The notes beneath the pieces are model-generated. The model worked only from the letters and a program-made list of their open reading frames with translations, did no database searches and had not been told where the DNA came from. A stretch of 24,054 nt of DNA. It comes from a virus. Of the stretch, positions 4,770 to 18,984 are shown in pieces (the first letter of the stretch is position 1; the number at the start of each line of letters is the position of its first letter). Location: positions 1 to 24,054 of IMG/VR virus record IMGVR_UViG_3300031862_000043; one strand, given 5' to 3'. A program made the position numbers and the translations under genes.

Positions 4770-4773
4770 GCAG

Positions 4774-4902
4774 ATGGCAAATGAAAACTGGGTGAAGGCA
4801 AAAGGAGGAGTAAAACAATTTGTGCCAATGCTGACCCTGAGCACCGCTATCATTGTTGGCTATGCTCTTCTCGTCAGAATCTTCGTAAAGGCAGGTAAAT
4901 GA
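4774..4902 (+). CDS. 42-residue single-span membrane protein
   Basis: ATG at 4774 to TGA at 4900-4902 encodes 42 residues. The N-terminus is polar and basic (MANENWVKAKGGVK). One hydrophobic span runs over about residues 17-38 (PMLTLSTAIIVGYALLVRIF), and a Lys/Gly tail ends it. GGAG lies seven bases before the ATG, at the end of the preceding gene. This predicts an N-in single-span protein. Small proteins of this kind occur in virion membranes and as lysis accessories, but the role here is unknown. Confidence 0.75.
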   Translation: MANENWVKAKGGVKQFVPMLTLSTAIIVGYALLVRIFVKAGK

Positions 4903-4909
4903 ATAGCAC

Positions 4910-4939
4910 TTGACTTTATTCCCCCCTCTCACTGATAAT
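4910..4939 (+). promoter_or_regulatory. Candidate promoter reading into hairpin leader
   Basis: TTGACT (4910-4915), an 18-base spacer and GATAAT (4934-4939) match 5/6 bases in each hexamer. The predicted start is near 4946, the first base of the hairpin at 4944-4973. The metalloprotease mRNA would therefore begin with a 5'-terminal stem-loop. Confidence 0.5.
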
Positions 4940-4943
4940 AAAT

Positions 4944-4973
4944 AAAGGGGCGTAGCTTATTTCTACGCCTTTT
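4944..4973 (+). terminator. GGGGCGTAG hairpin, terminator or 5' leader stem
   Basis: GGCGTAG (4949-4955) pairs with CTACGCC (4963-4969) around a seven-base loop. G-T and A-T pairs extend the stem, and a T-run (TTTTGTT) follows. It can end transcription from the upstream genes. Because a promoter starts almost at its first base, it is also the 5' end of the next mRNA. It shares its stem with hairpins at 1093-1134 and 7664-7725. Confidence 0.75.
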
Positions 4974-4994
4974 GTTATTAAAGGAGGTGCGAGA

Positions 4995-5732
4995 ATGACC
5001 TTTGACCAAGTTGACCAAATTCTGCTAGCCAAGGGGCTTGCCACTGACCCTGCCTTTGATAACCTCAAAATCGATATTGACCCAATCCGATGCTCTGACA
5101 CCTGTCCTCTTGGATTATATTTCCCCGTCGAGGAATGGAGTCCTAATTTACAATATACCGTGTCTGGGGGAACTATAGTCCTTCCCCCTGAAGCATCTGA
5201 ACCTGTCTTGCTCCACGAGCTCGGGCATAGGCACGGGCATTACTACTACGGAGACCTATCCGAAAGATATGCCGAGGATTTCAGGAAAATATACCAACCG
5301 AAAGGCAGAGCACTACTCTATAAAGGTAATGACTTCAGTAAATTACCTAGATTTGGGGCACTATTTGAGGAGGGGGAAAGAGGTGCTGTAGAAATGGCTC
5401 TAGCCTATCCTCTGACTCCTGATGAAGTATACGAAATTGAGAGTAGACTTAACTCCTACGGAGAGCGTTGTAGGGTTTGCTATGGAGATGGGGAGCTCCC
5501 ATTTCTCAGGATGGAGTTTACTCAGGGTGTTAATTGGCTGGTTATTGTAGGTTCGGTATTGGCAGCCTCAGTGGCTGCCGCTATTGGCACAATAGGGTAT
5601 GCTATTTACAAAATATCAAAGGAACTGCCCTGGGCAGTTCCCGTAAGCCTGTTTGGAATCATATCGGGCACGCTTTTGCTTCTCGGGGTGGCGGCAAAAG
5701 AAGCAAGAGCGAGGATTCCCGTCAGGGCGTAA
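4995..5732 (+). CDS. Membrane-anchored HELGH metalloprotease-like protein
   Basis: 245 residues. HELGH at 74-78, set in VLLHELGHRHGH, is the HExxH zinc site of gluzincin peptidases. SERYAEDF follows at 89-96, so Glu90 or Glu94 could be the third ligand, a layout like the ImmA/IrrE (M78) family. The N-terminal 60 residues are soluble and include C33 and C37; C159 and C162 make another pair. Two membrane helices lie at about 180-205 and 212-233, so the protease would be tethered. AAAGGAGGTG precedes the ATG. Roles could include cleaving a host repressor, processing virion proteins or attacking the envelope. The fold and motif are fairly clear; the substrate is unknown. Confidence 0.75.
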   Translation: MTFDQVDQILLAKGLATDPAFDNLKIDIDPIRCSDTCPLGLYFPVEEWSPNLQYTVSGGTIVLPPEASEPVLLHELGHRHGHYYYGDLSERYAEDFRKIYQPKGRALLYKGNDFSKLPRFGALFEEGERGAVEMALAYPLTPDEVYEIESRLNSYGERCRVCYGDGELPFLRMEFTQGVNWLVIVGSVLAASVAAAIGTIGYAIYKISKELPWAVPVSLFGIISGTLLLLGVAAKEARARIPVRA

Positions 5733-5775
5733 GGTGGAAAGAAAATAGTGGGTAATTTGCCGCGAGGGGGTAATT

Positions 5776-6381
5776 ATGATAGATTGCAGATCAAGAAAGC
5801 AACGAGAATATGATGAGGAAGCCGGTTATGAGGGCGTAGGGGCGGTCGCTCAGGAGGATAGGCGTAGAGGTGTTCCTCGCTCGGATATAGAAAGGGTAGC
5901 CAAGCATTATGGTATCAGCCTAGAAGAGGCACAATATTGGCTCACTATACATCCTGTTGAGGAACTATTGCCAGAGCGAGGAGCTGGAATAGAAAGGGGC
6001 ACAGCAGCAGCATTGCCCTCAGTATTTGAGAAAGCATTTGCCGTGCCTGCTCTGGCCAATCCAAGATTGGTGCCCTTTGACACCGTTCCCTCTCCCTATA
6101 TTGATATTAAGCCTACCAGTTTTAGACCCAGTGATAGAATTGACCTTGCCGTAGAATACAAAGCGTCCAACGATGAGGAAAGTGCGTGGCAGACCTGTGT
6201 GGTAGTTAAAATGGGGACAACAAAGCTAGTTAAGGAAAGACAGCACCACTATCAGATGCACCCTGATAAATCTCACGCTGACTGTGATACTGGAATGAGT
6301 ATGCCATCAACCCCAGTTACCCTTGAAGTTGAAGTCTGGGCACACCCTGATGAGTTGGAAACAAGCTGGCCGGATCCATAA
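5776..6381 (+). CDS. Hypothetical protein with helical N-domain and beta C-domain
   Basis: 201 residues. Residues 25-65 look like a small helical unit (VPRSDIERVAKHYGISLEEA, then YWLTIHPVEELLPERG). That unit resembles an HTH-like segment I associate with uncultured phage proteins. The C-terminal 90 residues are beta-rich, probably an immunoglobulin-like sandwich related to those of the next gene. No signal peptide or membrane span is evident. GAGGGGG lies five bases before the ATG at 5776. It ends eight bases before the next gene, so the two products may work together. Confidence 0.7.
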   Translation: MIDCRSRKQREYDEEAGYEGVGAVAQEDRRRGVPRSDIERVAKHYGISLEEAQYWLTIHPVEELLPERGAGIERGTAAALPSVFEKAFAVPALANPRLVPFDTVPSPYIDIKPTSFRPSDRIDLAVEYKASNDEESAWQTCVVVKMGTTKLVKERQHHYQMHPDKSHADCDTGMSMPSTPVTLEVEVWAHPDELETSWPDP

Positions 6382-6389
6382 GGAGTAAA

Positions 6390-7511
6390 ATGCCTGCTGT
6401 AGATTTAGCAATATCGCCTCCCTCTGATCCATTATTGGAGGCAGATTTGATGTTACAGACTCTAGAGGGGCGGCTAGGCACAAAGGAAAAACCATCGGTT
6501 GAGTGGAATGGAGCGTTTGGTGCTCCTATCATTAGCCCTCCTCCATGCTCAGTTGGCTCATTAGCTAGCGTGGCACTTGGTGCCTATACCGAAATAACCC
6601 AAATCACCGCTCCCCCCAGTGCCACCGCAGGTCAGTCTGTGACCATTGAGGCTACAGTCAAGAATTTGCATACCGCCAATATATATATTGCGGTCACGGG
6701 TCTTTATGATACTGCCGAGCTTCGTTTTACTCCCGAATATGCTATCGTGGAGCCTGGGGCAAACCATACATTCAGGGTATCTTTTACCATGCCTAATCAT
6801 AATGTTGAAGTTTGGGCATTCAGTCATTACTGGACAGGCACTGACTGGTATCAGGACGACCAGGATTCTGTTGATATTGCACTAGCTGTAGCATGGGCAA
6901 AACTTGCCACCAAAACTGTTACCATCACTCCAATAACATGGCAGAAGTTAGCCACCAAAACTGTTACCATCACTCCTGCAGAGGTGCCACCTGCAGAGTG
7001 GGTTAAGCTGGCTAGTAAGACAATTACTCTAACTCCAGCTGAAGTCCCTATTCCTGAGTATAAGCTGGTTCAGCACACTGAGTATCCTCGTGGTAAAACT
7101 TTTGTTGGTACGGCATCACAGTGCACCTTTACTTTTAAGCTCTTCCCCGAGCAGATACCGGGGGCTGGCTGGCTTGGTATAAAAGTTGCTACTGCCTTTG
7201 CTGATAAAGTGGTTGATAAGGGTTCGGAGATGCTTGACCTGAAAATCTATGAAGATACCTCACCAATGCTCTGGACAAACTATATGGTGATAGCTACCTG
7301 TATTGAGACATCACCGTTCCCCTGGGCAGTGGTTATACCTCTAATACTGGCCATCCTCTTTATAGTAGCTATTACTTTTCTGATTAAAGAGGTTAAGACC
7401 ATAGATTGGGGGAAACCAGTGGCAGCTATCCCAGTCTTAGCTATATTACTTGGTGTTGGTGCACTAGCCGGGATTGGTCTCGCCGCGGCAGCAGCCAAGA
7501 AAAGGAGGTGA
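6390..7511 (+). CDS. CARDB-like surface protein with C-terminal membrane anchor
   Basis: 373 residues. After a variable N-terminus, residues about 68-165 look like a CARDB/immunoglobulin-type sandwich (PPSATAGQSVTIEATVKN ... EPGANHTFRVSF). Three short tandem repeats of W-x-KLA(T/S)KT(V/I)T(I/L)TP follow, then another beta domain. Two hydrophobic helices end the protein (about 312-331 and 344-366), with a KKRR tail. AAGGAG precedes the ATG. The product is probably displayed on a membrane or envelope. There is no N-terminal signal, so topology would depend on the C-terminal helices. It closes the 4995-7511 group before a new promoter. Confidence 0.75.
   Translation: MPAVDLAISPPSDPLLEADLMLQTLEGRLGTKEKPSVEWNGAFGAPIISPPPCSVGSLASVALGAYTEITQITAPPSATAGQSVTIEATVKNLHTANIYIAVTGLYDTAELRFTPEYAIVEPGANHTFRVSFTMPNHNVEVWAFSHYWTGTDWYQDDQDSVDIALAVAWAKLATKTVTITPITWQKLATKTVTITPAEVPPAEWVKLASKTITLTPAEVPIPEYKLVQHTEYPRGKTFVGTASQCTFTFKLFPEQIPGAGWLGIKVATAFADKVVDKGSEMLDLKIYEDTSPMLWTNYMVIATCIETSPFPWAVVIPLILAILFIVAITFLIKEVKTIDWGKPVAAIPVLAILLGVGALAGIGLAAAAAKKRR
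6906..6976 (+). repeat. Intragenic direct repeats, 45-bp period
   Basis: A 26-base sequence (gccaccaaaactgttaccat plus cactcc) occurs identically at 6906-6931 and 6951-6976. A diverged third copy begins near 7008. They encode the KLATKTVTITP repeats of the surface protein. The identity of the first two at silent sites indicates a recent duplication or gene conversion. Confidence 0.9.
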
Positions 7512-7527
7512 TTTTTATAGAAAGGGC

Positions 7528-7556
7528 TTGACAAATTTGTAAACTAACTCTACACT
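7528..7556 (+). promoter_or_regulatory. Strong promoter before the virion gene block
   Basis: TTGACA (7528-7533), a 17-base spacer and TACACT (7551-7556) repeat the hexamers and spacing of the leftward promoter at 2650-2678. The start should be near 7563, eight bases before the first of two tandem hairpins. No ORF lies between this promoter and the gene at 7761. Confidence 0.8.
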
Positions 7557-7570
7557 AATTAAAGAGGCAT

Positions 7571-7625
7571 AAAAAGCGGGAAGAACCTGAGCTACTAAAA
7601 GTTCAGCTTCCCGCTTTTTCTTTTA
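7571..7625 (+). terminator. Terminator or attenuator in leader
   Basis: AAAAAGCGGGAAG (7571-7583) pairs perfectly with CTTCCCGCTTTTT (7607-7619). The loop can form a second short stem (CTGA/TCAG), and CTTTTA follows. It is a strong, bidirectional-looking terminator. It lies at +8 to about +57 of the promoter at 7528-7556, so it could abort a short RNA unless read through. Confidence 0.85.
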
Positions 7626-7663
7626 GCAGTCGGTTCTTCCCCTCCTAGTGGTCGAGCTAGGTC

Positions 7664-7725
7664 AAAGGGGCGTAGCACTCTCGGGTAGAGAGTTAGGAGA
7701 AGGCTACGCCCCTTTCCCTTTTTAT
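7664..7725 (+). terminator. Second leader hairpin with GGGGCGTAGC stem
   Basis: AAAGGGGCGTAGC (7664-7676) and GCTACGCCCCTTT (7703-7715) are perfect 13-bp arms. Inside them ACTCTC (7677-7682) pairs with GAGAGT (7688-7693), stacking on the main stem. CCCTTTTTA follows. It shares the GGGGCGTAG stem with 1093-1134 and 4944-4973. It is a terminator or a structured leader element before the gene at 7761. Confidence 0.85.
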
Positions 7726-7760
7726 CCGGGAGTGCTTGCCCGGAAAAAGGAGGTACTAAC

Positions 7761-8210
7761 ATGGCAGAATGGGTAAAGGCTGTGACCGATGTAGGCGTCG
7801 GCGGTGGCGCTGGTGTTGTTGACCAGCTATTGCAGAATCAGGATGAGAAGAGGGAAGCTGAGGCAACTACAGCTGGTAAGAAGTTCGGCATAATGTCTCA
7901 ATATGGGACCTACTATAACTACGGTGTCCCAATTCTCGCCATTTTTGCGACTGCCCTTGGCTTCCTGAAGGGAGACTGGGCAACCAGAGCGGTTGTTGCT
8001 GGCTCACAGTTAGCTGGTAGGAAGGTAACCAAGCAGGTTACCAAGCCAAAGGCAACTGCCTGGACACGCTGGTCACCAAGCCGAGAGCAAGAAGCGGCTC
8101 GCCAGAGGCAACTGGCTGAAGCTAGAGCCAGGGAAGCTAGAGCCCAACTGGGGGGACCAGTTTCACCAGTAAATATTCCCATTGTCGTTGATGAAGCTGT
8201 ACTCGTATAA
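7761..8210 (+). CDS. Small membrane protein with basic coiled-coil tail
   Basis: 149 residues. The N-terminus is Gly-rich (GVGGGAGVVDQLL). A likely membrane span lies at residues 54-69 (YGVPILAIFATALGFL), with a second, weaker hydrophobic patch at 73-84. A Lys/Arg-rich helix at about 105-130 (REQEAARQRQLAEARAREAR) and a hydrophobic C-terminal strand follow. AAAAAGGAGG precedes the ATG. It is the first gene after the strong 7528 promoter and directly precedes the candidate capsid-type genes. A virion membrane protein or an internal protein touching nucleic acid is plausible, but no family is recognised. Confidence 0.75.
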   Translation: MAEWVKAVTDVGVGGGAGVVDQLLQNQDEKREAEATTAGKKFGIMSQYGTYYNYGVPILAIFATALGFLKGDWATRAVVAGSQLAGRKVTKQVTKPKATAWTRWSPSREQEAARQRQLAEARAREARAQLGGPVSPVNIPIVVDEAVLV

Positions 8211-8261
8211 AAGTCTGGTTGGTTCGCTGGTAATCCCGGACCGACCTAAAGGAGGAAAACA

Positions 8262-9017
8262 ATGCAGAGACTACGAAACCTAAATCTTACCCCAACATCT
8301 GATGACCCAAAGCTGGACGTAAACCCTTGCACCAGGCCACAAGTCACTCTCTATAAGGAGACCATGACACTCGGCCCACTTGATGCTGAGGAGCTTGAGG
8401 TTTTTAAGGCTCAATTTGGTGGTCTATTGGCGGCACCCAGTAGCGATGAGAGAAAGCTAATGCTTGACCGCCTCAGCGTCTATGTAATCGGCCTGAGAGC
8501 CATTAAGCATGAGCTTAATGACATCAAGTTCAGAGGTATCAACCCTGAGGATACCGAGCTTGGCTTCAGTTTTATCCGCCCGATGTTTACCATTGCCGGG
8601 GTTGTCGCCGTCCCACGCACCTATAGGACAAACTGGCTTCAGGCTCTGACCCCAGTCTGGGCTGACTGGCTCTGGGAGGGTGCTGGTGCTGCCTTTACGC
8701 TGGGTAACAGCTTCGGGCTGGTAATCACCCACCTCAAGAGCTTGGTAACACCCGCACCGTTTATGACAGAGTGCAGATTCCAGGTAGGCCGCACCGGCGT
8801 CCTGATTCCTTTTGATGTCAGGATGCTGGCAGTCGCTGATACCGAGAATATGACCTCTATTGTCCCCATTCCATCAATGATACTAAAGCCCAGTTCCACG
8901 CTTTATGCCAGAGCAAGATCAGATGTGAACGGGACGGATAATGTTCCACTCGGTGGACTAGCAATTGGGCTGGGTAGAGTTCTCAGGCATGAAACCGGTA
9001 TTTTGGCTGGTTGGTAA
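8262..9017 (+). CDS. Candidate structural (capsid-type) protein
   Basis: 251 residues, no signal peptide. The N-terminal third includes a charged helical section (LGPLDAEELEVFKAQFGGLL). The remainder is beta-rich, ending with a motif like LYARARSDVNGTDNVPLGGL and a short tail. It contains VVAVPRTYRTNW, similar to VLAVPRTITDDV in the next gene, a hint of shared fold. AAAGGAGG precedes the ATG. Being first in a run of beta-rich genes with strong ribosome sites makes it a candidate major structural protein. No HK97 or known capsid signature is visible by eye, so this is an inference. Confidence 0.6.
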   Translation: MQRLRNLNLTPTSDDPKLDVNPCTRPQVTLYKETMTLGPLDAEELEVFKAQFGGLLAAPSSDERKLMLDRLSVYVIGLRAIKHELNDIKFRGINPEDTELGFSFIRPMFTIAGVVAVPRTYRTNWLQALTPVWADWLWEGAGAAFTLGNSFGLVITHLKSLVTPAPFMTECRFQVGRTGVLIPFDVRMLAVADTENMTSIVPIPSMILKPSSTLYARARSDVNGTDNVPLGGLAIGLGRVLRHETGILAGW

Positions 9018-9057
9018 TCCTAAAATAGAATAATAGGGGGGAGGATATTCTCCCCCC
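9003..9057 (+). promoter_or_regulatory. Candidate promoter followed by 5'-terminal hairpin
   Basis: TTGGCT (9003-9008), 17 bases and TAGAAT (9026-9031) suggest a start near 9038. GGGGGGAG (9036-9043) pairs with CTCCCCCC (9050-9057) around six bases, so the RNA would begin with an eight-base-pair GC stem. No T-run follows, so a terminator is unlikely. It lies between two candidate virion genes and may set their ratio or protect the 5' end. Confidence 0.45.
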
Positions 9058-9102
9058 TGACGCCTATACCCAGGAATCCCAAATAGAAAGGAGGCGAGGG
9101 GT

Positions 9103-9795
9103 ATGGATGTAAGTCTTTTAAAAACAAGCCACGAGGATTTATTCCTAGACCAGGGTCATTTGCTGGCTCTTGGCTTCTTTGAGGGCTGGGCCTGTTTTCG
9201 TATCACACATAAGGAGTGGGCAAACCTCAATCCCTGGTCTCTTGGTGCCGTTGCTGCTGGTGGCAACTTGGCTGCCTATAACGAAGTCCAGGATGCTAAT
9301 AGTCGTCACTACCTTCAGCCGCATGATGAGGCTCTAATTTATCATAGCTTCTGGGGAGTAACGCCTGTCAGGGCACGAATCTTCGTGCAGTATCCTCCCC
9401 AGTCCGATATTGGTAGCGTATTGGCTGTACCACGGACTATAACTGATGACGTTGGATATATTGATGGCGAGAAAAGCCCGTTTGAAGGCCCGTTCTCAAT
9501 TGCTACCGAGATGATAACCATCAAAGAGAAGTATCCTCAATATCAGGTCTACAATCCACTAGGTGATGCAATGGACAATGTGATGCTTAACTTCGACCAG
9601 ATGCACTATAGGTACATCATCATCAAGAATAGAGACCTGATAAAGAGTATGCTTATTGGCACAACGCGGGCAAAGAAATATACGATGGGTCCGACCTGGC
9701 CAAATGCAACAACTATTCCTGATTATCTCAAAAAGGCAGTTGGTGCTGACCTACTAAAATATAGCCTTGATGTGATGGCAGAGGGAGGTAGCTAA
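9103..9795 (+). CDS. Candidate structural protein
   Basis: 230 residues, soluble and beta-rich, with many aromatic residues (GFFEGWACFRITHKEWANLN; YHSFWGVTPVRARIFVQYPP). It shares the short VLAVPRT motif with the preceding gene. AAAGGAGG lies before the ATG, and the stop overlaps the next start as TAATG. Together with the 251- and 117-residue neighbours it could form a capsid or penton/spike set of beta-barrel proteins. This rests on gene order and beta content, not on a recognised family. Confidence 0.6.
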   Translation: MDVSLLKTSHEDLFLDQGHLLALGFFEGWACFRITHKEWANLNPWSLGAVAAGGNLAAYNEVQDANSRHYLQPHDEALIYHSFWGVTPVRARIFVQYPPQSDIGSVLAVPRTITDDVGYIDGEKSPFEGPFSIATEMITIKEKYPQYQVYNPLGDAMDNVMLNFDQMHYRYIIIKNRDLIKSMLIGTTRAKKYTMGPTWPNATTIPDYLKKAVGADLLKYSLDVMAEGGS

Positions 9796-10148
9796 TGCCA
9801 GATAAGAAAGCATTAAATTCAGCGTTAGGTACCATTACCAATGCTGTTGGTGGTGTTGCCTTCGGCTCTCATGTTCCGGCTAACATGAGGCGATATATCT
9901 ATAAGATAAAGACCGCCAACCAGTTTGCTGGAGCCAATCAGTTGCAGTTTGGTCACCAGACTGCCGTTCCTGCCAATGTCGTCCTTGACTACATAGACCA
10001 CGCTGTTATACATGATATGTGGAACGACCCTGATGAGGTAAAAGAGGATTCACTCCCAATCTACATCATACCAGCAGGGTCGCAACCTTGGGGTATCACA
10101 GATAATGGGAATTGCTATGTCTATATTGAATATGAGGATGCACCATAA
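9795..10148 (+). CDS. Small beta-rich candidate structural protein
   Basis: 117 residues, no membrane segment. Alternating hydrophobic strands (MRRYIYKIKTAN, PANVVLDYIDHAVIHDMW, CYVYIEYEDAP) suggest a single beta-sandwich or jelly-roll-like domain. The ATG at 9795 overlaps the preceding stop (TAATG), and GGGAGG precedes it, so the two products are probably made in a set ratio. The function is not recognised; a minor capsid or cement role is an inference. Confidence 0.65.
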   Translation: MPDKKALNSALGTITNAVGGVAFGSHVPANMRRYIYKIKTANQFAGANQLQFGHQTAVPANVVLDYIDHAVIHDMWNDPDEVKEDSLPIYIIPAGSQPWGITDNGNCYVYIEYEDAP

Positions 10149-10290
10149 TAAATAGAAGGAGGTGACGCCACAAAAAGAAGTGAGCAAGTTCGGGCTTGGT
10201 AAATCTTTATGCCAAAGCCTGTAGTACCCGGCTAGGGGGAAACTAATATGCTCCCTGAAAGGATTGGGGGAATAGCTCAAAAGGAGAAAC
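10149..10290 (+). other. Intergenic leader with orphan ribosome site and hairpin
   Basis: AAGGAGGTGA at 10156-10165 is a near-perfect anti-SD match, but no start codon stands at normal spacing behind it. GGCTTGG (10193-10199) can pair with CCAAAGCC (10212-10219) with one bulged A. The only frames are very short (15-23 codons). The next gene has its own AAAAGGAG at 10280. This may be the remnant of a gene or a regulatory leader. Confidence 0.4.
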
Positions 10291-11010
10291 ATGAAAAAGA
10301 TAGGATTCATAGCGGGTAGTAGAATAAAGAAATGGGGGGACTGGGAGCCGTCCTTAGTGGACACTGTGTATGAACAGGATGACTTCCTGGGTGACATACT
10401 CAAGGACGAGTGGGGTTTATTCCTTGGTGCTGGTTGCGCTGGCGCCATTGTAGCTTTACCGAACGGAACTGTCGTTCTTACCACCGTTGCTGGTGATAAC
10501 CTGTTTTCCCAGCTATCCCATCAGCTAAACTTCTCTGCAACGCACATGGCTGGTATTGAGGCCAGGGTAGCACTGGATGTCATTACTAACTGCACCATTG
10601 AGGTCGGTTTTAATGATGCCCTGACAGAAGCTCAAGGTAGAGCCTTTGATGACTACGAGCTAACCGGAGGTCTACCAACCCCAGTTGCTGCAAATGCAGC
10701 AATCGTCGGTTTTGACCCAACTGATAGTCCCCTCCATCCTCATCTGACTGGAGTTAGCGCAATAGCTGGCGCAGGTTTTGCCGTTAACCTGGGTGTTGAC
10801 CCTATAGCTGCAACCTTCATAAGGCTTGGAGTCCAGCTAGATGTGCTCGGGAACGCCTACTACTACGTGAATGGTGCTCTGTTAGGAACACGGTTACTCG
10901 CCATAACACCGGCTACACCTCTTACCCCTTGGTTAGCCATTAGCAATAAGGCAGGCGCCATAGCACGCAACCTGACCATTGACTATGTTAAGTTCTGGCA
11001 GAACCGTTAA
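10291..11010 (+). CDS. Beta-sandwich virion-associated protein
   Basis: 239 residues. After a short polar N-terminus the body is beta-rich, of the kind seen in lectin/LamG-like (concanavalin A-like) phage structural proteins: strands such as GIEARVALDVITNCTIEVGF and a closing YYYVNGALLGTRLL, then LTIDYVKFWQNR, where a final strand with a Trp is typical. AAAAGGAGAAAC precedes the ATG at 10291. The family call is by pattern only. Carbohydrate binding or surface decoration would fit. Confidence 0.65.
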   Translation: MKKIGFIAGSRIKKWGDWEPSLVDTVYEQDDFLGDILKDEWGLFLGAGCAGAIVALPNGTVVLTTVAGDNLFSQLSHQLNFSATHMAGIEARVALDVITNCTIEVGFNDALTEAQGRAFDDYELTGGLPTPVAANAAIVGFDPTDSPLHPHLTGVSAIAGAGFAVNLGVDPIAATFIRLGVQLDVLGNAYYYVNGALLGTRLLAITPATPLTPWLAISNKAGAIARNLTIDYVKFWQNR

Positions 11011-11022
11011 AGGAGGTAGCGC

Positions 11023-11433
11023 ATGAGAAGCAAGAGAAGCACTTATGGGAATACCAGGCGCTTTAGTGTTATGGCTACCCTCCCTGGTACTGCAGGTGCT
11101 ACTGCCGCTAACTACGGTAAGTTCTTTGTTGCTGACCGTGTATGCACAGTATTGAAAATCTCCGAGTCCCACGAAGTCGCGGGAACTGATGTTGGTGCCG
11201 TAACATTAACTGTTGAGCGGCTTCAAGGGGTTGAGACGTCAGGGAATGGTGATGACCTTTTGGCGGCACCGATTGACCTCAAGGGGGCAATCAATACCAT
11301 TCAGGCTCCAGCACTAAGTGCAGCGCCTGGTGTCCTGACACTGGCTGTCGGAGACAGGCTTAACCTCGTTGATACTGGAACTTTAACTGCTGTAGCTGGG
11401 GTTTGTGTTACCGTTGATATGGAGGAGGGCTAA
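11023..11433 (+). CDS. Single-module beta-repeat structural protein
   Basis: 136 residues with one copy of a module found twice in the next gene: an N-terminal ...AANYGKFFVADRVCTVLKI, a centre TVERLQGVETSGNGDDLLAA, and an end VGDRLNLVDTGTLTAVAG followed by a final strand VCVTVDMEE. This module resembles a beta-sandwich common in phage virion proteins. AAAGGAGG precedes the ATG. The stop overlaps the next start as TAATG. A decoration or fibre-shaft role is likely by context. Confidence 0.75.
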   Translation: MRSKRSTYGNTRRFSVMATLPGTAGATAANYGKFFVADRVCTVLKISESHEVAGTDVGAVTLTVERLQGVETSGNGDDLLAAPIDLKGAINTIQAPALSAAPGVLTLAVGDRLNLVDTGTLTAVAGVCVTVDMEEG

Positions 11434-12269
11434 TGAGAAGTAAAGTTGCTATGTACGATACCAGAAGAGTTCTAGTTTCTACCCACCTTCCCGATGCTAT
11501 AGCAGGAACGGCAGCTAACTATGGGGTTATGTTCATCTGCCCCGCGGCCACCCGCTTTAAGCTCGTTGGCGCTGAAGAAGTCCACACAGTTGCCGCCGGT
11601 GCTGCTGCTGGCGTCACCTTGGAGAAACTTGAGGCTGGCGAAGCCCCCGATGCTGGTGATGAAATGCTCGCAGCGGCACTTAACCTTCAAGGAGCGGCAG
11701 AAACGCCTCAGTATGGTAGCATCGCTGGAATTGCTGATGCTATAAGAACCCTGGCGAGCGGAGACCGCATCTGTCTCAAGGACTCAGGTAACCCGGCTGC
11801 TGTCAGGAACTGCCAGGTCACCATAGAATTGGAGGAGTTGGCGACTCTAAGGGCAAAAGAATCACCAACAGAAAAAGAGCGGATATTCGCTACGGCAGTG
11901 CTATATGGGGCGCAACCTCAGACTGCGGCGATGTATGACAAGTTCTTCACTGCCAGCAGACCATGCAGAGTGGTTGCTGCCAGGGCAGTTTTTACCACTG
12001 CCAGTGGCGATGCAGCCGGCTTTTGTCAGATTGAGAGACTTCAGGGAGTTGAGGTACCAGGGACGGGCGATAACCTATTAACGAATAATGCCAATGCTGG
12101 TTTTGACCTCAATGGGGTTGCCGAGACGGTGCAGGTAGGTACATTAACTGCTGTCGCTGCCACCTTGGTTCTTGCTAGAGGTGACAGGTTAGCGCTTGAC
12201 CCAGTGGATGCTCATATCGGTGCCACTGCGGGGCTGTGTGTTACCGTAGAGTTGGAAGCCATAGACTGA
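11433..12269 (+). CDS. Two-module beta-repeat structural protein
   Basis: 278 residues made of two copies of the module in the 136-residue neighbour. The first covers about residues 1-135 (ending QVTIELEEL), the second about 150-278 (MYDKFFTASRPCRVVAARAV ... GDRLALDPVDAHIG ... CVTVELEAI). The MRSK start is shared with the upstream gene, which points to tandem gene duplication plus internal fusion. GAGGAGGG precedes the ATG. Three modules in a row would suit a trimeric or elongated virion part. Confidence 0.75.
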   Translation: MRSKVAMYDTRRVLVSTHLPDAIAGTAANYGVMFICPAATRFKLVGAEEVHTVAAGAAAGVTLEKLEAGEAPDAGDEMLAAALNLQGAAETPQYGSIAGIADAIRTLASGDRICLKDSGNPAAVRNCQVTIELEELATLRAKESPTEKERIFATAVLYGAQPQTAAMYDKFFTASRPCRVVAARAVFTTASGDAAGFCQIERLQGVEVPGTGDNLLTNNANAGFDLNGVAETVQVGTLTAVAATLVLARGDRLALDPVDAHIGATAGLCVTVELEAID

Positions 12270-12296
12270 ATCACGAGATAAAGGGCAATGTAGTCT

Positions 12297-12354
12297 AGCA
12301 GCGGGGCTAAGCCCTTTCGCTGCTCAAAGTGAGGGGTAGCCTTAGCTACCCCTC
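12297..12354 (+). terminator. Tandem hairpins between structural genes
   Basis: AGCAGCG (12297-12303) pairs with CGCTGCT (12318-12324), enclosing GGGC/GCCC. Then GAGGGGTAGC (12331-12340) pairs perfectly over 10 bp with GCTACCCCTC (12345-12354) around a CTTA loop. Neither has a real T-run, so they may act as RNA processing or stability elements rather than terminators. The second stem is close to the GGGGCGTAGC stems elsewhere. Confidence 0.7.
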
Positions 12355-12370
12355 TATGTTAGGAGGAGAA

Positions 12371-12757
12371 ATGGTCACAGGACCAAGACCAGGAGAGGCA
12401 CCACTTTTAGTGCCTCCAAAGGAAATTGAGCAGATACCGTTTGCCTATAATCTAACGGTAGCGGGAACTCTTACCTCAGGAGTTGTGCTAACCGAAATTG
12501 CAACATTTGCCGGGTATATCAAGCAGATAGCTCTTCATGTCCCCGATGGTTGTGATGCCCTTGTGGATATAAGAGTAGGTGTTGGGGTTAAGCAGTTCTG
12601 TCCAAGAGAGGGCTATTTATCTCTTAATGACGCTACACCAACATATCCATTTAATATACCTGTTCAGCAGGGCGAGGAAATTTGGGTGGAGATGAGAAAC
12701 ACTGATGGTGGAAATCCCCATAATATCACCGTAACCGTGAGTTTGGAGAGTGCATAA
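12371..12757 (+). CDS. Beta-rich structural protein
   Basis: 128 residues from ATG 12371, chosen because TAGGAGGAGAA lies directly ahead; a longer frame from GTG 12329 would run through a hairpin. The sequence is a likely jelly-roll-type domain: IPFAYNLTVAGTLTSGVVLT, YIKQIALHVPDGCDALVDIR, PFNIPVQQGEEIWVEMRNTD, NITVTVSLESA. This strand pattern (membrane-like 'GTL ... HVPDG') is common in phage baseplate/capsid accessory proteins of unknown role. The stop overlaps the next ATG (TAATG). Confidence 0.7.
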   Translation: MVTGPRPGEAPLLVPPKEIEQIPFAYNLTVAGTLTSGVVLTEIATFAGYIKQIALHVPDGCDALVDIRVGVGVKQFCPREGYLSLNDATPTYPFNIPVQQGEEIWVEMRNTDGGNPHNITVTVSLESA

Positions 12758-13446
12758 TGGCTGTAAAGGTAACAAGAAGTTTTACTGCCACACAAAGAGG
12801 CATAGGCAAGCCCGATTACACTAGGGAAGTCTCTTCTGCACAAGAGAGAAGGGGCCTCAAACTAGCCTATAAGCAAACACTGGAAATTTGGGGTATCGTC
12901 TTTTCTGCCATACCATCGCCCTTTGCATGGGTTGCAGCCCCCTTAATTCCGGGAGGCATAGCCCACTATATTGACAATGTAACTGGACTTGTGTTGCCAT
13001 TTACTGTTCCGCAGGGCTACACATTAACACTTATAGCTGCGGGTGGTGGCTTTACCGAAGATGCAATAGCATGGGTGTATTTCGGCACCCCTCCTGCTCC
13101 TGACTTTCTAGTTCTAAGCGGTGGACTTATGGGTGGAGGTCAGTCAGGTTATGAAAACAGACTCGTCGGTATTTCCACTGCAACTATAGACCCTACTGGA
13201 GCCACTGCCCATACAGTAGACATTCAGCTAACCAACTTAGGAACTGGCAATCTTGAGGGAGGAGTAGAGTGGACTGGGATACTCGAGGAGGTAGGTACGC
13301 CAGCACTGCCCACAACAAAGGTAGTGCGGTGTAAATGGTGTGGCTATGAGCAGACTGTCCCAAGAGAAGTAACACGCATAATTTGCCCTAGATGCGGCCA
13401 GCTGACTCTTTACTATGACTTATCTCAGTTCAGGAGAACACCGTAA
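12757..13446 (+). CDS. Structural protein with C-terminal zinc ribbon
   Basis: 229 residues. The N-terminal part is polar (RSFTATQRGIGKPDYTREVS), and the middle is hydrophobic and beta-rich without a clear membrane helix. The C-terminus is a zinc ribbon with CKWC at 192-195 and CPRC at 210-213. A zinc ribbon on a gene inside a virion block is unusual; it may fix a fold or link to another subunit. TAATG overlaps join it to both neighbours. The family is not recognised. Confidence 0.7.
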   Translation: MAVKVTRSFTATQRGIGKPDYTREVSSAQERRGLKLAYKQTLEIWGIVFSAIPSPFAWVAAPLIPGGIAHYIDNVTGLVLPFTVPQGYTLTLIAAGGGFTEDAIAWVYFGTPPAPDFLVLSGGLMGGGQSGYENRLVGISTATIDPTGATAHTVDIQLTNLGTGNLEGGVEWTGILEEVGTPALPTTKVVRCKWCGYEQTVPREVTRIICPRCGQLTLYYDLSQFRRTP

Positions 13447-14348
13447 TGCTAGAAACAGTAGCTAGAAGAATATTGAGGGCCGTCTTTGGGGGCGGTGCTG
13501 ATATCAGTGCCGCCAACCCCTTGCCAGTGGATATCAGTCCGGGAGCCAAGGTCGCCACGACTATACTTAATTTGGCAGCAATCGCTGCTGCCCCGGCGGT
13601 CACAACACTGGCAAACTGCACTGCCAGAGGGACACATACCGGGGCACTACATCTAACGGTGATGACCGATGCCGCCGCCCACTTCATTGCCGATGAGCTC
13701 ATAGGGCTCACAATACAGAACACCGCTGATGGCAGTACGGGGGTCATCACCGCCAACACTCCAACTACAGTGACAGTAGCGGCTCTGGCTGGGGGCGCCA
13801 CTAACCGCTGGAACACTGGGGATGCCTACTCCATTGTTGGCTTCGCCCTCAATATGACGCTGGGTAAGGAAACTCTGGCCCTGACTGTGAAAGCGAGGTA
13901 TGATGGGGCTGCCACTAGGGGTATCCAGATTCACGTGAGAACTTCGCCAACGAATCGAGCCACAGGGACTCATACCGCTGCTAATCACCTCACTATTATG
14001 ACCGATAACGCTGCCCACCTTATCGCCAACGAGCTGATAGGCTTGAGAATACTCAACGCTACTGATGGTAGCTCTGGTATCATCACCGGTAACACAGAGA
14101 CGACGGTGACAGTGGCAGCACTGGCTGGCGGTACGCTTAATCGCTGGACTACTGGTGATGCCTATTCTATTGTTGGGGCGGACTTTGACGTTTATGACTG
14201 GGACGTATGGAATCCTACCTTCGTGGCGGGAGCAGTGCTGAGGCAAACCAAGATTTATGATACCGCCCCAGCCTATATTAAAGTTCTGGTTGAAAACCTA
14301 GACCCGGCACAGACTGTTACTGATGTAAGAATAATTGCAACAGGTTGA
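13446..14348 (+). CDS. Repeat-containing fibre or baseplate-like protein
   Basis: 300 residues with two copies of an approximately 75-residue module, at about 58-132 and 170-244. Each has GTHT, HL-T-MTD, ADELIGL or ANELIGL, NATDGS-G-IT, NT-TTVTVAALAGG and a closing GDAYSIVG. Such modules occur in phage adhesins and fibres. A beta segment (NMTLGKETLALTVKARYDGA) separates the copies. It overlaps the preceding stop (TAATG). There is no membrane segment or enzyme motif. A surface or host-contact role is inferred. Confidence 0.75.
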   Translation: MLETVARRILRAVFGGGADISAANPLPVDISPGAKVATTILNLAAIAAAPAVTTLANCTARGTHTGALHLTVMTDAAAHFIADELIGLTIQNTADGSTGVITANTPTTVTVAALAGGATNRWNTGDAYSIVGFALNMTLGKETLALTVKARYDGAATRGIQIHVRTSPTNRATGTHTAANHLTIMTDNAAHLIANELIGLRILNATDGSSGIITGNTETTVTVAALAGGTLNRWTTGDAYSIVGADFDVYDWDVWNPTFVAGAVLRQTKIYDTAPAYIKVLVENLDPAQTVTDVRIIATG

Positions 14349-14352
14349 TGAA

Positions 14353-15276
14353 ATGGAAAGACCACCGCTAGATGAGCTCCTATCTTTGATGCAGGCCACG
14401 GTTGCCGCAGAGGGCGTCACCACCGCTCCCGGCGCTGCCGCTGGCAATAGCATTGTAGATGCTGGACTAGCTGGTGCTGGGGCAAACAGCTTTTTTAGTA
14501 TGCTTATGGTGGTATACCCAGGTCAACCGCGTCTTGTTGACTCAATGGACATCACCGCCTTCAACAATGCTAACGGCGAAGTTACTCTATCCACTGCATA
14601 TAAAGGTGTTGCCGCTCCAATACCAGCTGGTGTGCCGTATAAGATAATTACCTTCCGGTTTGTCCCCGCCGAGGTGGCAGCAATCGAGGCAAAACTTGAC
14701 CTCCCCGCTGCTGATGCGGTCTTAAACACTAGAATAGCTGAGATTATCGGCAACAAAACAGATACTGCTATTGTTGCTGCTGATAATGTTTCCTCTATTA
14801 TGCGGTATCTCAAGGGCTTAATTGCTCAGACAAGTAAACTTCCCAACTTTCAGCATGAAGTAGAATGGGCAAGCACTCCAGTCTCCCAACAGGTAGCTAG
14901 TGCAGCATTAACCGACCTAACCGCAGGGAGCATAACCCCGACCTTCCCCACTGGGGCTACGAGAGTCAGGGCTATTCTAGTAGCCAGTATTCATGCTGCT
15001 AACCAGGCAGCAAACACCCACCATATTGGCTTCACTGTGCAGGGGCAGAAGGATGCTGGTGGCTATGTAACTCAAGTTGACCTGACAGCCGTAGCACCAC
15101 TTGGTTTAGTTAATCTTGATGGGGCTGGTGATGGCTGGAGTGGCGCGATAGATGTAACTACTCTAGTTGATGCCTCTGGTTCTGTTTATACCTTTCGCTT
15201 CCAAGTCGATAGCGATAATGCTGGAGCAGTGAACTATACCACCAACTTTGTTTTGGTTCTAGTTTATAGGATATGA
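14353..15276 (+). CDS. Structural protein with helical neck and beta C-domain
   Basis: 307 residues from ATG 14353; a TTG 18 bases earlier would overlap the upstream gene and has no ribosome site. The first 100 residues are beta-rich (NANGEVTLSTAYKGVAAPI). A helical neck at about 105-160 (PAEVAAIEAKLDLPAADAVL) could trimerise, and a beta C-domain follows (VRAILVASIHAANQAANTHH ... FRFQVDSDNAGAVNYTTN). The order neck-then-head suits a fibre adaptor. The product is not assigned to a named family. Confidence 0.7.
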   Translation: MERPPLDELLSLMQATVAAEGVTTAPGAAAGNSIVDAGLAGAGANSFFSMLMVVYPGQPRLVDSMDITAFNNANGEVTLSTAYKGVAAPIPAGVPYKIITFRFVPAEVAAIEAKLDLPAADAVLNTRIAEIIGNKTDTAIVAADNVSSIMRYLKGLIAQTSKLPNFQHEVEWASTPVSQQVASAALTDLTAGSITPTFPTGATRVRAILVASIHAANQAANTHHIGFTVQGQKDAGGYVTQVDLTAVAPLGLVNLDGAGDGWSGAIDVTTLVDASGSVYTFRFQVDSDNAGAVNYTTNFVLVLVYRI

Positions 15277-15285
15277 GGATAAGAA

Positions 15286-16776
15286 ATGGCAGTAGCCCGT
15301 CATATATTGATTCAGTCAAGAAAGATTGGCGGTGGTGGTGCTCTCGTAGTGCCCATAGGAGCAATCGCCCTCTGGACTGGAACGTTAGCGACCATCCCCG
15401 CTAATTGGAGTCTATGTGATGGGACAGGAGGCACTCCTAATTTAGTAGCCAGATTTGTTAGAGGTGCACCTGCCGCTACTAATCCAGGCACAACTGGTGG
15501 TGTAGACTCTCACAGTCATGCCTCAATGACTGCCGCTGGCGGACATACCCATACAGCGCAGAACCTTAGCCACCAGCATACAGTGAATAGCGCTGGAGAC
15601 CATGGGCACATCGCCACGACAACTCTTGACCCAATAGGAGTGGCTAATCAGGCGATGGACTTAAATGCTGGTGCCCATCAGCATACAAACAACGCAGCGA
15701 CACACTCTCACACGATGGACAGCACAGCAAACCATACTCACCCTATCAGCACCGGTGATGGACGCCCACCCTACTACGAGGTAGCCTTTATTCAGGCTGG
15801 GGTGGGTGCTTCAGTAGCACTAAACCTAATTATCATTTGGACAGGGCTACTGGCTAACATCCCCGCAGGCTGGACGCTATGCGATGGTGGTGGGGGACGA
15901 CCAGATTTACGCTCAAGGTTTGTGAGAGGTGTAAATACCAATGTCACCAACCCAGGGACAACTGGTGGTGCAGCTACCCATCTCCATACTGAGACAGCGC
16001 AAGCCGCCCATACCCATATTATGAATAATACTGTTGCTCATCAGCACACTTTCAATGCCTACACATGGACTCATAGCCATAATACCGCCAACAAATACTC
16101 TACAGGAGCTACTACCGACATGATACGCCAGTCAGATACTGGTGGGGGAGATCATACCCATGCTGCTAGCAACTCTATTGATACCCATAACCACAACCCT
16201 ATGGGTAATGATGGCGGTCATACCCATATAGTCAATGCTGCCTCCTCTCTGCCGGCTTATTATGATGTAGCCTATATCATCAACACTGGTGCAGCCATCA
16301 TTCCACAAAATGGTATTCTTATCTGGACTGGACTGCTGGCTAATATCCCTTTAGGCTATAATCTGTGTGATGGTGGGGGAGGTCGCCCTGACCTGCGTTC
16401 TAAGTTTGCCAGGGGTTCTAATGCAGGTGTTGACCCTGGTGGCACAGGTGGCTCAGATACCCATACTCACACTGATCAGGATGCAGGTGCTCACAACCAA
16501 CACACACAGACAGCTGCTGGGAGCCACCAACATGCGGCAACAGATAGCATTGGAAGCCATACACATGCAACTACTACCCCTGCCCATTATAGCGATTATA
16601 GCGGGACGCCTATACTCACTCAAAACGCTGCTGGTGCTCACTCTCATACCTACAACAACGAGGGCAGCCACAACAACCATGTCCTGACTGACCCCGGTAA
16701 TCATACCCATAATAACTGGAGTACAGATGATGGCAGACCAGCTTATTATGAGGTGGCGTTTATTCAAAAGGCTTAG
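15286..16776 (+). CDS. Triple tail-collar protein with dense His-x-His motifs
   Basis: 496 residues in three modules (about 20-170, 178-333 and 342-496). Each opens with a tail-collar motif: (I/L)WTG-L--IP--W-LCDG-GG-P(D/N)L--(R/K)F-RG. Each runs through about seven HxH pairs (HSH, HTH, HQH, HGH, HNH) and closes with PAYYEVAFIQ-like residues. The collar domain is known from short tail fibres, and HxH rows in T4 gp37 hold iron ions in a trimeric needle, so a metal-stabilised receptor-binding fibre or spike is likely. GGATAAG precedes the ATG. It is the best-supported virion protein in the window. Confidence 0.85.
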   Translation: MAVARHILIQSRKIGGGGALVVPIGAIALWTGTLATIPANWSLCDGTGGTPNLVARFVRGAPAATNPGTTGGVDSHSHASMTAAGGHTHTAQNLSHQHTVNSAGDHGHIATTTLDPIGVANQAMDLNAGAHQHTNNAATHSHTMDSTANHTHPISTGDGRPPYYEVAFIQAGVGASVALNLIIIWTGLLANIPAGWTLCDGGGGRPDLRSRFVRGVNTNVTNPGTTGGAATHLHTETAQAAHTHIMNNTVAHQHTFNAYTWTHSHNTANKYSTGATTDMIRQSDTGGGDHTHAASNSIDTHNHNPMGNDGGHTHIVNAASSLPAYYDVAYIINTGAAIIPQNGILIWTGLLANIPLGYNLCDGGGGRPDLRSKFARGSNAGVDPGGTGGSDTHTHTDQDAGAHNQHTQTAAGSHQHAATDSIGSHTHATTTPAHYSDYSGTPILTQNAAGAHSHTYNNEGSHNNHVLTDPGNHTHNNWSTDDGRPAYYEVAFIQKA

Positions 16777-16785
16777 GAGGTCTAC

Positions 16786-17001
16786 ATGAATAACGGGGAA
16801 AAAGAAAAGGAGCATCCCAAGACCATGATTGAAGTTATAGAGGGGACACGGGGTGCAGTAGAAGCGTATTCCCAGGCTCAAAAAATACCCGAGACACAGG
16901 CAGCCCTCATACTGATACTTAATGAACTGCGTTGTATCCACTGGCACCTTGATGTTATGATGGCTAAGGAGGCAGAAAATGCAGGTAAAAGTCAAAGTTA
17001 A
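16786..17001 (+). CDS. Small hypothetical protein
   Basis: 71 residues, charged and helical (KTMIEVIEGTRGAVEAYSQA), with a short Cys/His patch (LRCIHWHLD). No family is recognised. TAGGAGG lies five bases before the ATG. It overlaps the next gene by 23 bases, so the two are coupled. It follows the collar protein gene directly, and its size would suit a fibre chaperone, but that is only a guess. Confidence 0.65.
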   Translation: MNNGEKEKEHPKTMIEVIEGTRGAVEAYSQAQKIPETQAALILILNELRCIHWHLDVMMAKEAENAGKSQS

Positions 17002-17293
17002 GGATATCCAGACTATCCACACTGATGGCGGAGGTAGGCTTGACCAGCCGATGATAGAGGTGACCTTAGAGTGCAACAAGGTTGGTGAGGCTACGAAATA
17101 TGAGGTAAAGTTCTCAGAGCAATTAGCCAACCTGGCTGGGATGTCTGATGCCCAACTTCTGGGATATTGTCAGATGCTGGCTGAGTCTTATGCCAAGACT
17201 GCCTATAAAGGACAGCAGCAGCTTGACCCAGTTACCAAAAACTGGAAGAAACAGAATGATTATATCGGTCAGGAGTTCACTGTAGATATTTAA
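16979..17293 (+). CDS. Small hypothetical protein
   Basis: 104 residues; the N-terminal half is beta-rich (QVKVKVKDIQTIHTD ... MIEVTLECNKV), the C-terminal half helical and Gln/Lys-rich. AAGGAGG lies before the ATG at 16979, within the preceding gene. No family is recognised. It ends 10 bases before the CARDB-type gene and so belongs to the same operon. Confidence 0.65.
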   Translation: MQVKVKVKDIQTIHTDGGGRLDQPMIEVTLECNKVGEATKYEVKFSEQLANLAGMSDAQLLGYCQMLAESYAKTAYKGQQQLDPVTKNWKKQNDYIGQEFTVDI

Positions 17294-17303
17294 GAAGGTG
17301 CTA

Positions 17304-17819
17304 ATGAAAGATGGAAAGAAAGCAGCAGTAGTAATAGGGGTTGAGGCAGCTATAACCACTGTGATTATTCTTGCCACTAAAAAAGCTGAGGCAGCACCAC
17401 CAATACCGCCTGCCGAAATTGACCTTGGTGAGTTAGCTATCAACCCGCCAGAAGTTAATCCAGGGCAGAAGGTGACAATATCGGTTAGAGTAACTAACCT
17501 CGGTGGCCAGAGAGGCTCCTACGAAGTAACGCTAGGAGGTGATTTCATGGCAACCAAAACAGTAACCCTAGAACCAGGAGAAAGCAAGGCAGTAAGTTTT
17601 CAAGTGACGCCAACCGAACTGGGAGCTTACTCGGTCAGTGTTGATGGTCTAACTGGCAGCTTCTCGGTGGTTGCGGTGCCGGTGGCTGACATTAGACTAT
17701 CAGACCTGGTTATTGAGCCAAGCGAAGTTAATGTTGGTGAACCAGTTAGTATTAGCGTGGTTGTTACTAACTACGGCACAGCTTCTGGGTCAAGGACAAT
17801 AACCTGCATAGTTAGTTAG
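17304..17819 (+). CDS. CARDB-repeat surface protein, first part (interrupted)
   Basis: 171 residues from ATG 17304 (AAGGTG upstream; GTG 17298 is an alternative). Residues 5-24 are a hydrophobic signal or anchor (KKAAVVIGVEAAITTVIILA). One full CARDB domain follows (about 35-120: ELAINPPEVNPGQKVTISV ... LEPGESKAVSF). A second domain then starts (LVIEPSEVNVGEPVSISVVV) and stops mid-sandwich at TAG 17817. The missing half is encoded in the +1 frame from 17827. So this is a broken, frameshifted or reinitiated gene. The product is probably membrane-anchored and surface-exposed. Confidence 0.7.
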   Translation: MKDGKKAAVVIGVEAAITTVIILATKKAEAAPPIPPAEIDLGELAINPPEVNPGQKVTISVRVTNLGGQRGSYEVTLGGDFMATKTVTLEPGESKAVSFQVTPTELGAYSVSVDGLTGSFSVVAVPVADIRLSDLVIEPSEVNVGEPVSISVVVTNYGTASGSRTITCIVS

Positions 17820-17826
17820 GAGAGGA

Positions 17827-18744
17827 ATGGCACAGAAAACAATAACCCTTAATCCGGGGGAGAGCAAAATTGTGGAGTTTCCTTTTACTCCCAAAGAAGC
17901 TAAAACCTATCAGGTGTCGGTTAATGGGCTGACGGGGAGTTTCAGGGCTATCTCAGCGGTGCCAGTTAATAAAATTGTGGATTTCCCTGACCTACAGGTA
18001 TTGAATGTGGAGGGAATAACTTTTAACAAGGTTGCTATAGAGACAGCCTCAAATATAGATGCTCTTGTTGTAGTTCTAAAAGCCTATTCAGTTCCTCCTG
18101 AGACGCCTTGGGTTGAGCAGCCAGAGGGTATTATGACTGAGCATCTACGTGATGCAGCTCAGTTTATTCTTTCCACCGTGCTAAGCACTCCTTTAGATGC
18201 GACCTACAGCGCCCAGATAGCTCATATAATGCCAGCGGTAGTTGCTATTCCTAGTGATTGGCTTTACCCATTTAGCTGCACTATAAATCCATACACGGGG
18301 CAGACATGGTGGGTTAGCCAGTCGTATGCTGTGGCAAGCTACATAGCTCAAAACTTAACATCTATTATCGGGGAACCGATACTCACCGCCTATCTATCCA
18401 CACCAATAGTAATGTCCGAGTTAAGGGGCATTACCTTAACTATAATGGGTAAGGATTCCCTAGCTCCATATGTCAGCCGTAATCCCGTTGCTCAAGTTAA
18501 TATGTGGTATGAGCCTGCCTTTAGTGCCCCAATGCCACCACCTTCATATAGGGGCGGCGGACCTCTTCAAATAGGAAAAGCGACGGAAATTCATGCCAAA
18601 GGAACTATTGCTCCAGGGTACTACTATCCGGGGATCTACAATGCCAGAATCGGAATATGGTGGGAGGCATACCCCTATAGTGGGGGAGTCAATTACTTCA
18701 GGATTAAGAACCTAGCCAAAGTGACTGGGGAGGGGACAGTCTGA
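17827..18744 (+). CDS. CARDB-repeat surface protein, second part
   Basis: 305 residues. It opens MAQKTITLNPGESKIVEFPF, which aligns with the second half of the CARDB domain upstream (KTVTLEPGESKAVSFQV), so it completes the domain cut by TAG 17817. A large unassigned region follows, rich in aromatic and Pro residues (PSDWLYPFSCTINPYTGQTW; YYYPGIYNARIGIWWEAYPY). TAGGAG lies just before the ATG and could allow reinitiation. The stop overlaps the next gene as TGATG. The role is unknown; adhesion or surface interaction is plausible. Confidence 0.65.
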   Translation: MAQKTITLNPGESKIVEFPFTPKEAKTYQVSVNGLTGSFRAISAVPVNKIVDFPDLQVLNVEGITFNKVAIETASNIDALVVVLKAYSVPPETPWVEQPEGIMTEHLRDAAQFILSTVLSTPLDATYSAQIAHIMPAVVAIPSDWLYPFSCTINPYTGQTWWVSQSYAVASYIAQNLTSIIGEPILTAYLSTPIVMSELRGITLTIMGKDSLAPYVSRNPVAQVNMWYEPAFSAPMPPPSYRGGGPLQIGKATEIHAKGTIAPGYYYPGIYNARIGIWWEAYPYSGGVNYFRIKNLAKVTGEGTV

Positions 18745-18974
18745 TGGATGCTAAAATTCTCGGGGAGTTGCTAGCTAAAAAGAACGTCGTGTCTGTGGGG
18801 CGCGGGCACAAAAAGGTTGGCGGAGTTGACACCGGCAGACCGTGTATTGTGATAGGTGTTAGAAAGAAGCTGCCGCTCGCCGACCTCGCTTTTGAGGATA
18901 TTGTCCCTAAGATTATTGGGAACCCCGGCGAAGAGACAGATGTCGTTGTCGTTGGGGAAATAAAGTTACTTTAG
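18744..18974 (+). CDS. N-terminal domain of trypsin-like protease, separate frame
   Basis: 76 residues (NVVSVGRGHKKVGGVDTGRP then CIVIGVRKKLPLADLAFEDIVP). It matches the N-terminal domain that precedes many bacterial S1-type proteases with a RPAPGGVSIG boundary. Here it ends at TAG 18972 and the protease resumes in the +1 frame at 18985. The stop context is CTT TAG A, like the prfB slip site. The start overlaps the previous stop (TGATG), with GGGAGGGG upstream. Confidence 0.7.
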   Translation: MDAKILGELLAKKNVVSVGRGHKKVGGVDTGRPCIVIGVRKKLPLADLAFEDIVPKIIGNPGEETDVVVVGEIKLL

Positions 18975-18984
18975 AAGCAGAAAA

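Follow-up and report, generated by a model that had tools for sequence, protein, structure and literature searches.

Known bacterial dsDNA viruses are mostly tailed. Among non-tailed DNA viruses, the Halopanivirales (Thermus P23-77, Haloarcula SH1) have two adjacent single-jelly-roll capsid proteins, and FLiP (Finnlakeviridae), which infects bacteria and has small virion genes, encodes in its 9.2-kb genome a single 311-aa capsid protein with a double jelly-roll. In the part of the literature covered, we found no description of a non-tailed Chloroflexota virus. Here we analyze a 24,054-bp IMG/VR virus record (IMGVR_UViG_3300031862_000043, positions 1 to 24,054), the whole of which is called the window and which we took to be a fragment because its two ends have no common repeat. 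On balance, and by a modest degree, we favor the reading that its central gene block encodes the virion of a non-tailed DNA virus from an undescribed lineage with relatives in Chloroflexota bins, in which a conserved trio of genes (8262, 9103 and 9795, named by first position) would form the shell.

The block recalls the Halopanivirales in its two adjacent, similar-sized candidate capsid genes within a virion operon and in its small accessory virion proteins; it differs in that the trio has no sequence match and no FtsK/HerA ATPase was recognized near the block or across its 64.76-kb relative, G394. Small virion genes and a putative non-tailed form in a bacterial host are likenesses to FLiP. 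A link to the Spiraviridae (Aeropyrum coil-shaped virus, ACV) is a window protease (18985-19746) that is 30% identical to ACV 25-326 over 85% of the protease length, which is no lineage marker because a 484-kb phage also encodes a protein that shares 37% identity with this protease. Trio profiles had no match among P23-77, SH1 or FLiP proteins and no significant match to any ACV protein. Likeness to the Caudoviricetes comes from phage-like replication genes in G394 and a tail-collar-type fiber protein in the window, whereas terminase, portal, HK97 capsid and tape measure were undetected in the closed-looking G394.

Gene organization of the window

The original prediction, made from the letters of the window, described a virion operon without tailed-phage hallmarks. 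The ORFs that it named are present on the plus strand at their predicted coordinates and lengths, and most of them have strong Shine-Dalgarno (SD) sites or coupled starts, with one-base overlaps at 9103/9795 and 12757/13446. The features of the block are as follows.

7528..7556, +, predicted sigma70-like promoter (TTGACA-17-TACACT), intergenic and upstream of the virion block; 10/12 in the consensus scan
7761..8210, +, 149-aa protein heading the block; ORF with a strong SD site, no homologue in G394, L002 or L005
8262..9017, +, trio gene 1, 251 aa, capsid candidate; homologues 39-40% identical in L002, L005 and G394
9103..9795, +, trio gene 2, 230 aa, best major capsid candidate; 53-55% identical in L002, L005 and G394, 30% in L015
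9795..10148, +, trio gene 3, 117 aa, minor capsid, vertex or decoration candidate; 60-76% identical in L002, L005 and G394
10291..11010, +, putative LamG/concanavalin-like spike protein (fold class by sequence pattern only); 63% identical to the G394 gene 39931-40659
11023..11433, +, putative spike/decoration domain, 136 aa; 57% identical in G394
11433..12269, +, tandem two-domain version of the 11023 protein, 278 aa; 68% identical in G394
12329..12757, +, conserved putative spike/fiber protein, 142 aa; 64-67% identical in G394 and L005
12757..13446, +, putative virion protein with a C-terminal zinc-ribbon (CxxC..CxxC), 229 aa; 44-46% identical in G394 and L005, weak Zn-ribbon Pfam matches
13446..14348, +, putative fiber/spike protein with an internal repeat, 300 aa; segments 41-63% identical in G394 and L005
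14335..15276, +, putative fiber/spike protein ending the conserved block, 313 aa; N-terminal part 58-67% identical in G394 and L005
15286..16776, +, triplicated tail-collar-type fiber protein; PF07484 E 1e-4, PHROG 5795 tail protein E 7.7e-48

The 11023 protein is about 40% identical to each half of the 11433 product, and L002 has three tandem genes similar to 10291 at the corresponding place. When the 20 plus-strand proteins of 2951-19746 were compared with Pfam and PHROGs, none matched a portal, terminase, HK97 capsid, tube, sheath or tape measure family, in agreement with the original prediction. Clear family matches were limited to the tail-collar/fiber protein 15286-16776, the sole phage-structural match in this set, and the trypsin-like protease 18985-19746. 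Hydropathy bore out membrane segments in 4995, 6390, 17298, 19727 and the short frame 4774; the segment claimed for 7761 was not clear.

Intergenic sigma70-like promoters with 10/12 consensus bases precede 2951, 4995 and 7761, and a further one precedes 2643 on the minus strand. The scan of the window returned 29 sites against 21 expected, so that it is the placement of the sites and not their number that suggests a bacterial host. The minus-strand part of the window carries BadF/DUF2229-type activase genes and a possible radical-SAM protein. Naming a host from the DUF2229 genes was rejected, the similarity being too low (29-41% for the better matches).

Relatives and conservation of gene order

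The trio occurs in identical order in three further records: L005 (an 8.6-kb IMG/VR record), G394 (also L004; a 64,886-bp IMG/VR record) and L002 (a contig of a Chloroflexota MAG), and in every case the 8262 homologue adjoins the 9103 homologue. L002 came from a genome scan and the other two from alignment-guided scans; single-sequence scans of viral contigs with 8262, 9103, the protease and L015 proteins found nothing, and alignments were needed. L015 (also L007), a 13.6-kb contig from another MAG in the class of the L002 genome, encodes a 9103 homologue that is more distant, at 30% identity. The carriers thus include two genome bins, independent of each other, of which one is named Chloroflexota and the second belongs to its class; together with the promoter type, these bins suggest a Chloroflexota host. 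About 390 genomes from the class and 400 from the phylum yielded the 9103 family in these two cases only, which makes it rare in databases. Weak 9103-profile matches in G146, G084, G190, G373 and G091 were judged chance: of the sequences behind such matches, L026 is a different secreted-type protein, L029 and L030 are ordinary bacterial genes, and the G084 and G190 frames have a stop.

BLAST of the window proteins against those of G394 returned exactly ten collinear conserved genes, spanning 8262-15276, at about 40-76% amino acid identity. Codon comparison of the two gave dN of 0.15-0.56 and, where computable, dS of 1.0-2.6, values above 1 being rough; for the 9795 gene dN was 0.15 and dS 2.2. 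dN/dS was about 0.07-0.33 in seven block genes, and dS was not computable for the other three. The ten are real coding genes under purifying selection, and the block is more than a chance resemblance because ten genes are collinear in an independent genome at 42-77% amino acid identity, with dN/dS well below 1 in the seven that gave a dS. The flanking window genes, 2951-8210 and 15286-19918, have no G394 homologue except a marginal one for 17298 (E 0.004). Since nothing beyond the block is clearly common to the window and G394, common capsid genes, if there are any, should sit within it.

That the block alone is common to these two records, with different genes on both flanks, also makes an exchangeable attachment (fiber/spike) cassette the main rival explanation, according to which unrelated viruses carry the block and have differing capsid genes elsewhere. 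Several of the ten genes are fiber/spike-like and the adjoining 15286 is a tail-collar protein, which fit such a cassette. A 9103 homologue is present, however, in a 13.6-kb contig without fiber genes, and G394 has no other recognizable capsid set, and we therefore hold the cassette to be unlikely. The fiber gene 15286..16776 is itself not conserved in the relatives.

Near both of its ends L015 encodes tyrosine recombinases; a primase-helicase and a DNA methylase are also present, and after them come a zinc-finger/coiled-coil protein of 394 aa, the 9103 homologue (213 aa) and proteins of about 141-150, 181, 129 and 56 aa. Host genes and flanking repeats, which would mark its limits as an element, were not detected in L015. 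If L015 is a whole element, proteins of this kind must build its shell, and the 9103 family then becomes the best major-capsid candidate. Its neighboring proteins were rejected as homologues of 9795 and 8262.

The resemblance of L015 to an integrative element, together with the want of a recognized capsid gene, raises the question of whether the block could belong to a non-viral element, such as a plasmid or an integrative element that encodes adhesins or other surface proteins. Against this, G394 has a viral-type gene set (PolA-UDG, ThyX, dCMP deaminase, nucleotide pyrophosphohydrolase and Sak4), the window encodes a phage-type fiber protein, and three of the records are classed as viral in IMG/VR; we judge a non-viral origin very improbable. 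The G394 homologue of 9103 was not found in 72,556 plasmids.

Gene content of the 64.76-kb relative

G394 carries an exact 127-bp repeat at its start and end. This length is the largest k-mer of common metagenome assemblers, and such a terminal repeat is the usual sign of a closed circle. On account of this repeat, G394 is probably a closed genome of about 64,759 bp (about 64.76 kb). A simple ORF caller gave 92% coding with only one gap above 350 bp. Replication and nucleotide genes include a DNA polymerase A-uracil-DNA glycosylase fusion (PolA-UDG), ThyX, a thymidylate-synthase-like protein, a dCMP deaminase and a nucleotide pyrophosphohydrolase; a Sak4-like annealing protein, a RecB-like nuclease, a DinG helicase, ParA, an integrase and lipid-type genes are also encoded.

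Terminase, portal, capsid and tape measure were absent from the best 25 of 40 PHROGs and the best 25 of 72 NCBIfam families matched by 83 G394 proteins, and likewise from all 16 families of a separate PHROG scan of 47 virion-module or unassigned G394 proteins. Terminase_6N (PF03237) had no match in G394, G236 or G395 and was detected in 9 of 14 control genomes; Phage_portal (PF04860) had none in G394 and was detected in 4 of the 14. No HK97-fold capsid stood among the Pfam, PHROG or NCBIfam matches listed for window and G394 proteins, a result that leaves room for a diverged fold. Inspection of all G394 GK[S/T] motifs assigned the P-loops to Sak4, DinG and ParA; a variant P-loop occurs in an AAA protein that resembles a clamp loader. 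ORFs above 320 aa read as enzyme, fiber-like, HTH or coiled-coil proteins; the unassigned ones, a zinc-finger/coiled-coil protein (407 aa), an HTH protein (391 aa) and fiber-like proteins (386, 616 and 668 aa), include none resembling a portal or terminase, and no portal candidate is evident among the large ORFs. Neither tape measure nor tail tube was matched, the largest virion-module ORFs being the repetitive 616-aa and fiber-like 668-aa proteins. Homology of the G394 zinc-finger/coiled-coil protein to its L015 counterpart, or to window 3345, was unsupported.

These results bear on whether the virus could be an ordinary tailed phage in which divergence hides the terminase, portal and capsid genes. 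The tail-collar-type fiber gene of the window and weak PHROG matches in G394, which include tail fiber and tail proteins, point that way. Yet a closed-looking, 92% coding genome offers no terminase-like P-loop ORF, evident portal candidate or tape measure, and the terminase and portal models that stayed blank in it did find matches in the controls. A tailed phage is accordingly a highly doubtful explanation, and the non-tailed reading, the core of the original prediction, gains support from a relative that is probably complete.

The proposal of two single-jelly-roll major capsid proteins and an internal membrane, which the original prediction had added, fared less well: the trio matched no known jelly-roll protein by sequence, and a search for a packaging ATPase or terminase in the window and in G394 found neither. 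The motif-based search, which could miss a very diverged protein, gave no FtsK/HerA-type ATPase in G394 and no P-loop motif in the window fragment, which counts against a classical two-jelly-roll virus. As a special case of our main reading, 8262 and 9103 could still be single-jelly-roll capsid proteins of a membrane-containing icosahedral relative of the Halopanivirales. Two similar-sized adjacent proteins with a small third recall the VP7/VP4 and VP16/VP17 arrangements, and several window products have hydrophobic segments. A weak motif common to 8262 and 9103 (hhalign E 0.03) would fit as well but is not significant, and paralogy of the two was rejected on that ground. With the ATPase absent from window and G394, no profile match to P23-77 or SH1 proteins, and an 8262 N-terminal part that may be a long helix in a low-confidence model, we consider this special case distinctly unlikely.

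The trio as candidate capsid genes

Pfam and PHROGs gave no match for the trio proteins, and the PDB none that was credible. The 9103 protein had no match in 50,697 phage records, and the two found there for the 8262 protein were at chance level. PDB matches of single trio proteins at E 0.1-2 and kinetochore matches of the 8262 profile were likewise judged chance; a BP39L lectin match of the 9795 profile (E 7e-5 over 42 positions, with no stretch passing on its own) is probably a repeat artefact. AlphaFold models of 9103 and 8262, from alignments of 5 and 4 sequences, both had pLDDT 34, too poor to read or to compare with jelly-roll proteins, and the helical stretch that they suggest at about residues 42-84 of 8262, a protein taken for beta-rich in the original prediction, has the same low confidence.

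As far as gene order and sequence can tell, the trio is probably the capsid core of a non-tailed virus, with 9103 as best candidate for the major capsid protein, and the genes after it probably encode spikes. The operon would be driven from a sigma70-type promoter at 7528, and the 8262-9103-9795 trio would build the capsid shell, perhaps with the 9103 product as its main protein and the other two as partners or vertex proteins; the seven further conserved genes may provide attachment spikes or fibers. Collinearity of the trio in four records, the window included, supports the shell reading. Counting against it, the trio has no sequence similarity to any known capsid protein, G394 has no recognized dedicated packaging ATPase, which an icosahedral dsDNA virus normally needs, and 9103 is the only trio member, and the only block gene, detectably conserved in L015.

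A bolder version, which we put forward tentatively and would not expect to hold, is that the trio represents a capsid type non-homologous to known ones, in a new high-rank non-tailed Chloroflexota lineage with genomes of perhaps about 13 kb to 65 kb, whose DNA would be packaged or coated without a terminase or FtsK/HerA ATPase. A genome such as G394, with phage replication genes and without a recognizable packaging motor or capsid, lets the existence of a further bacterial capsid lineage be asked directly, and virus-finding pipelines built on terminase or known capsid hallmarks could overlook such viruses.

Metabolic and lipid-type genes

The window carries a CoA-dehydratase activase-like gene pair, possibly an auxiliary metabolic gene pair, with 29-41% identity to its better relatives in genomes of the Chloroflexota class concerned. 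In the 64,886-bp IMG/VR contig G394, a relative that is probably closed, a cluster of unusual lipid-type genes adjoins the virion module, and its membrane protein looks, by eye, like a dolichol kinase.

Window 20041-21862, (-), BadF ATPase and DUF2229 pair
G394 51267-57603 (stretch L012, 13267-19603), UbiA prenyltransferase, ketoacyl-synthase/DpgA-like enzyme, NAD epimerase and membrane protein

Proteases and protease-like proteins

At window 18744-19746 a 76-aa ORF is followed by a trypsin-like protease, which shares 30% identity with the protease of Aeropyrum coil-shaped virus and 37% with a protein of a 484-kb uncultured phage. The HELGH metalloprotease motif was found in one protein of the window (4995-5732) and one of G394 (54889-55617; L012 16889-17617), each encoded in the virion half of its genome; overall homology between the two was not detectable. 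Upstream of the candidate capsid trio, G394 (L012 5728-6405) and L002 (919-1596), a Chloroflexota MAG contig, encode a similar 225-aa protein whose His and Cys residues follow a caspase-like pattern (GHG ... SCQ); it is a possible maturation protease and has no counterpart in the window.

Short terminal peptides

Small proteins directly upstream of the trio in L004 (a stretch of G394) and L002 have a common C-terminal peptide, (R/K)PLG(Q/E/K)EI(L/M)S, possibly a tail by which an internal or scaffold protein binds the capsid.

L004 7854-8168
L004 8179-8475
L002 2167-2478

A short motif of the pattern W-E-G-P-P-L-P-R/K..G.YWP, nearly identical from copy to copy, lies at one end (N- or C-terminal) of six G394 proteins (stretches L010-L013) that are otherwise unrelated.

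G394 3-218
G394 30854-31450
G394 31457-31729
G394 47970-48257
G394 53490-53750
G394 58351-58686

This motif may be a tag for virion targeting or packaging.
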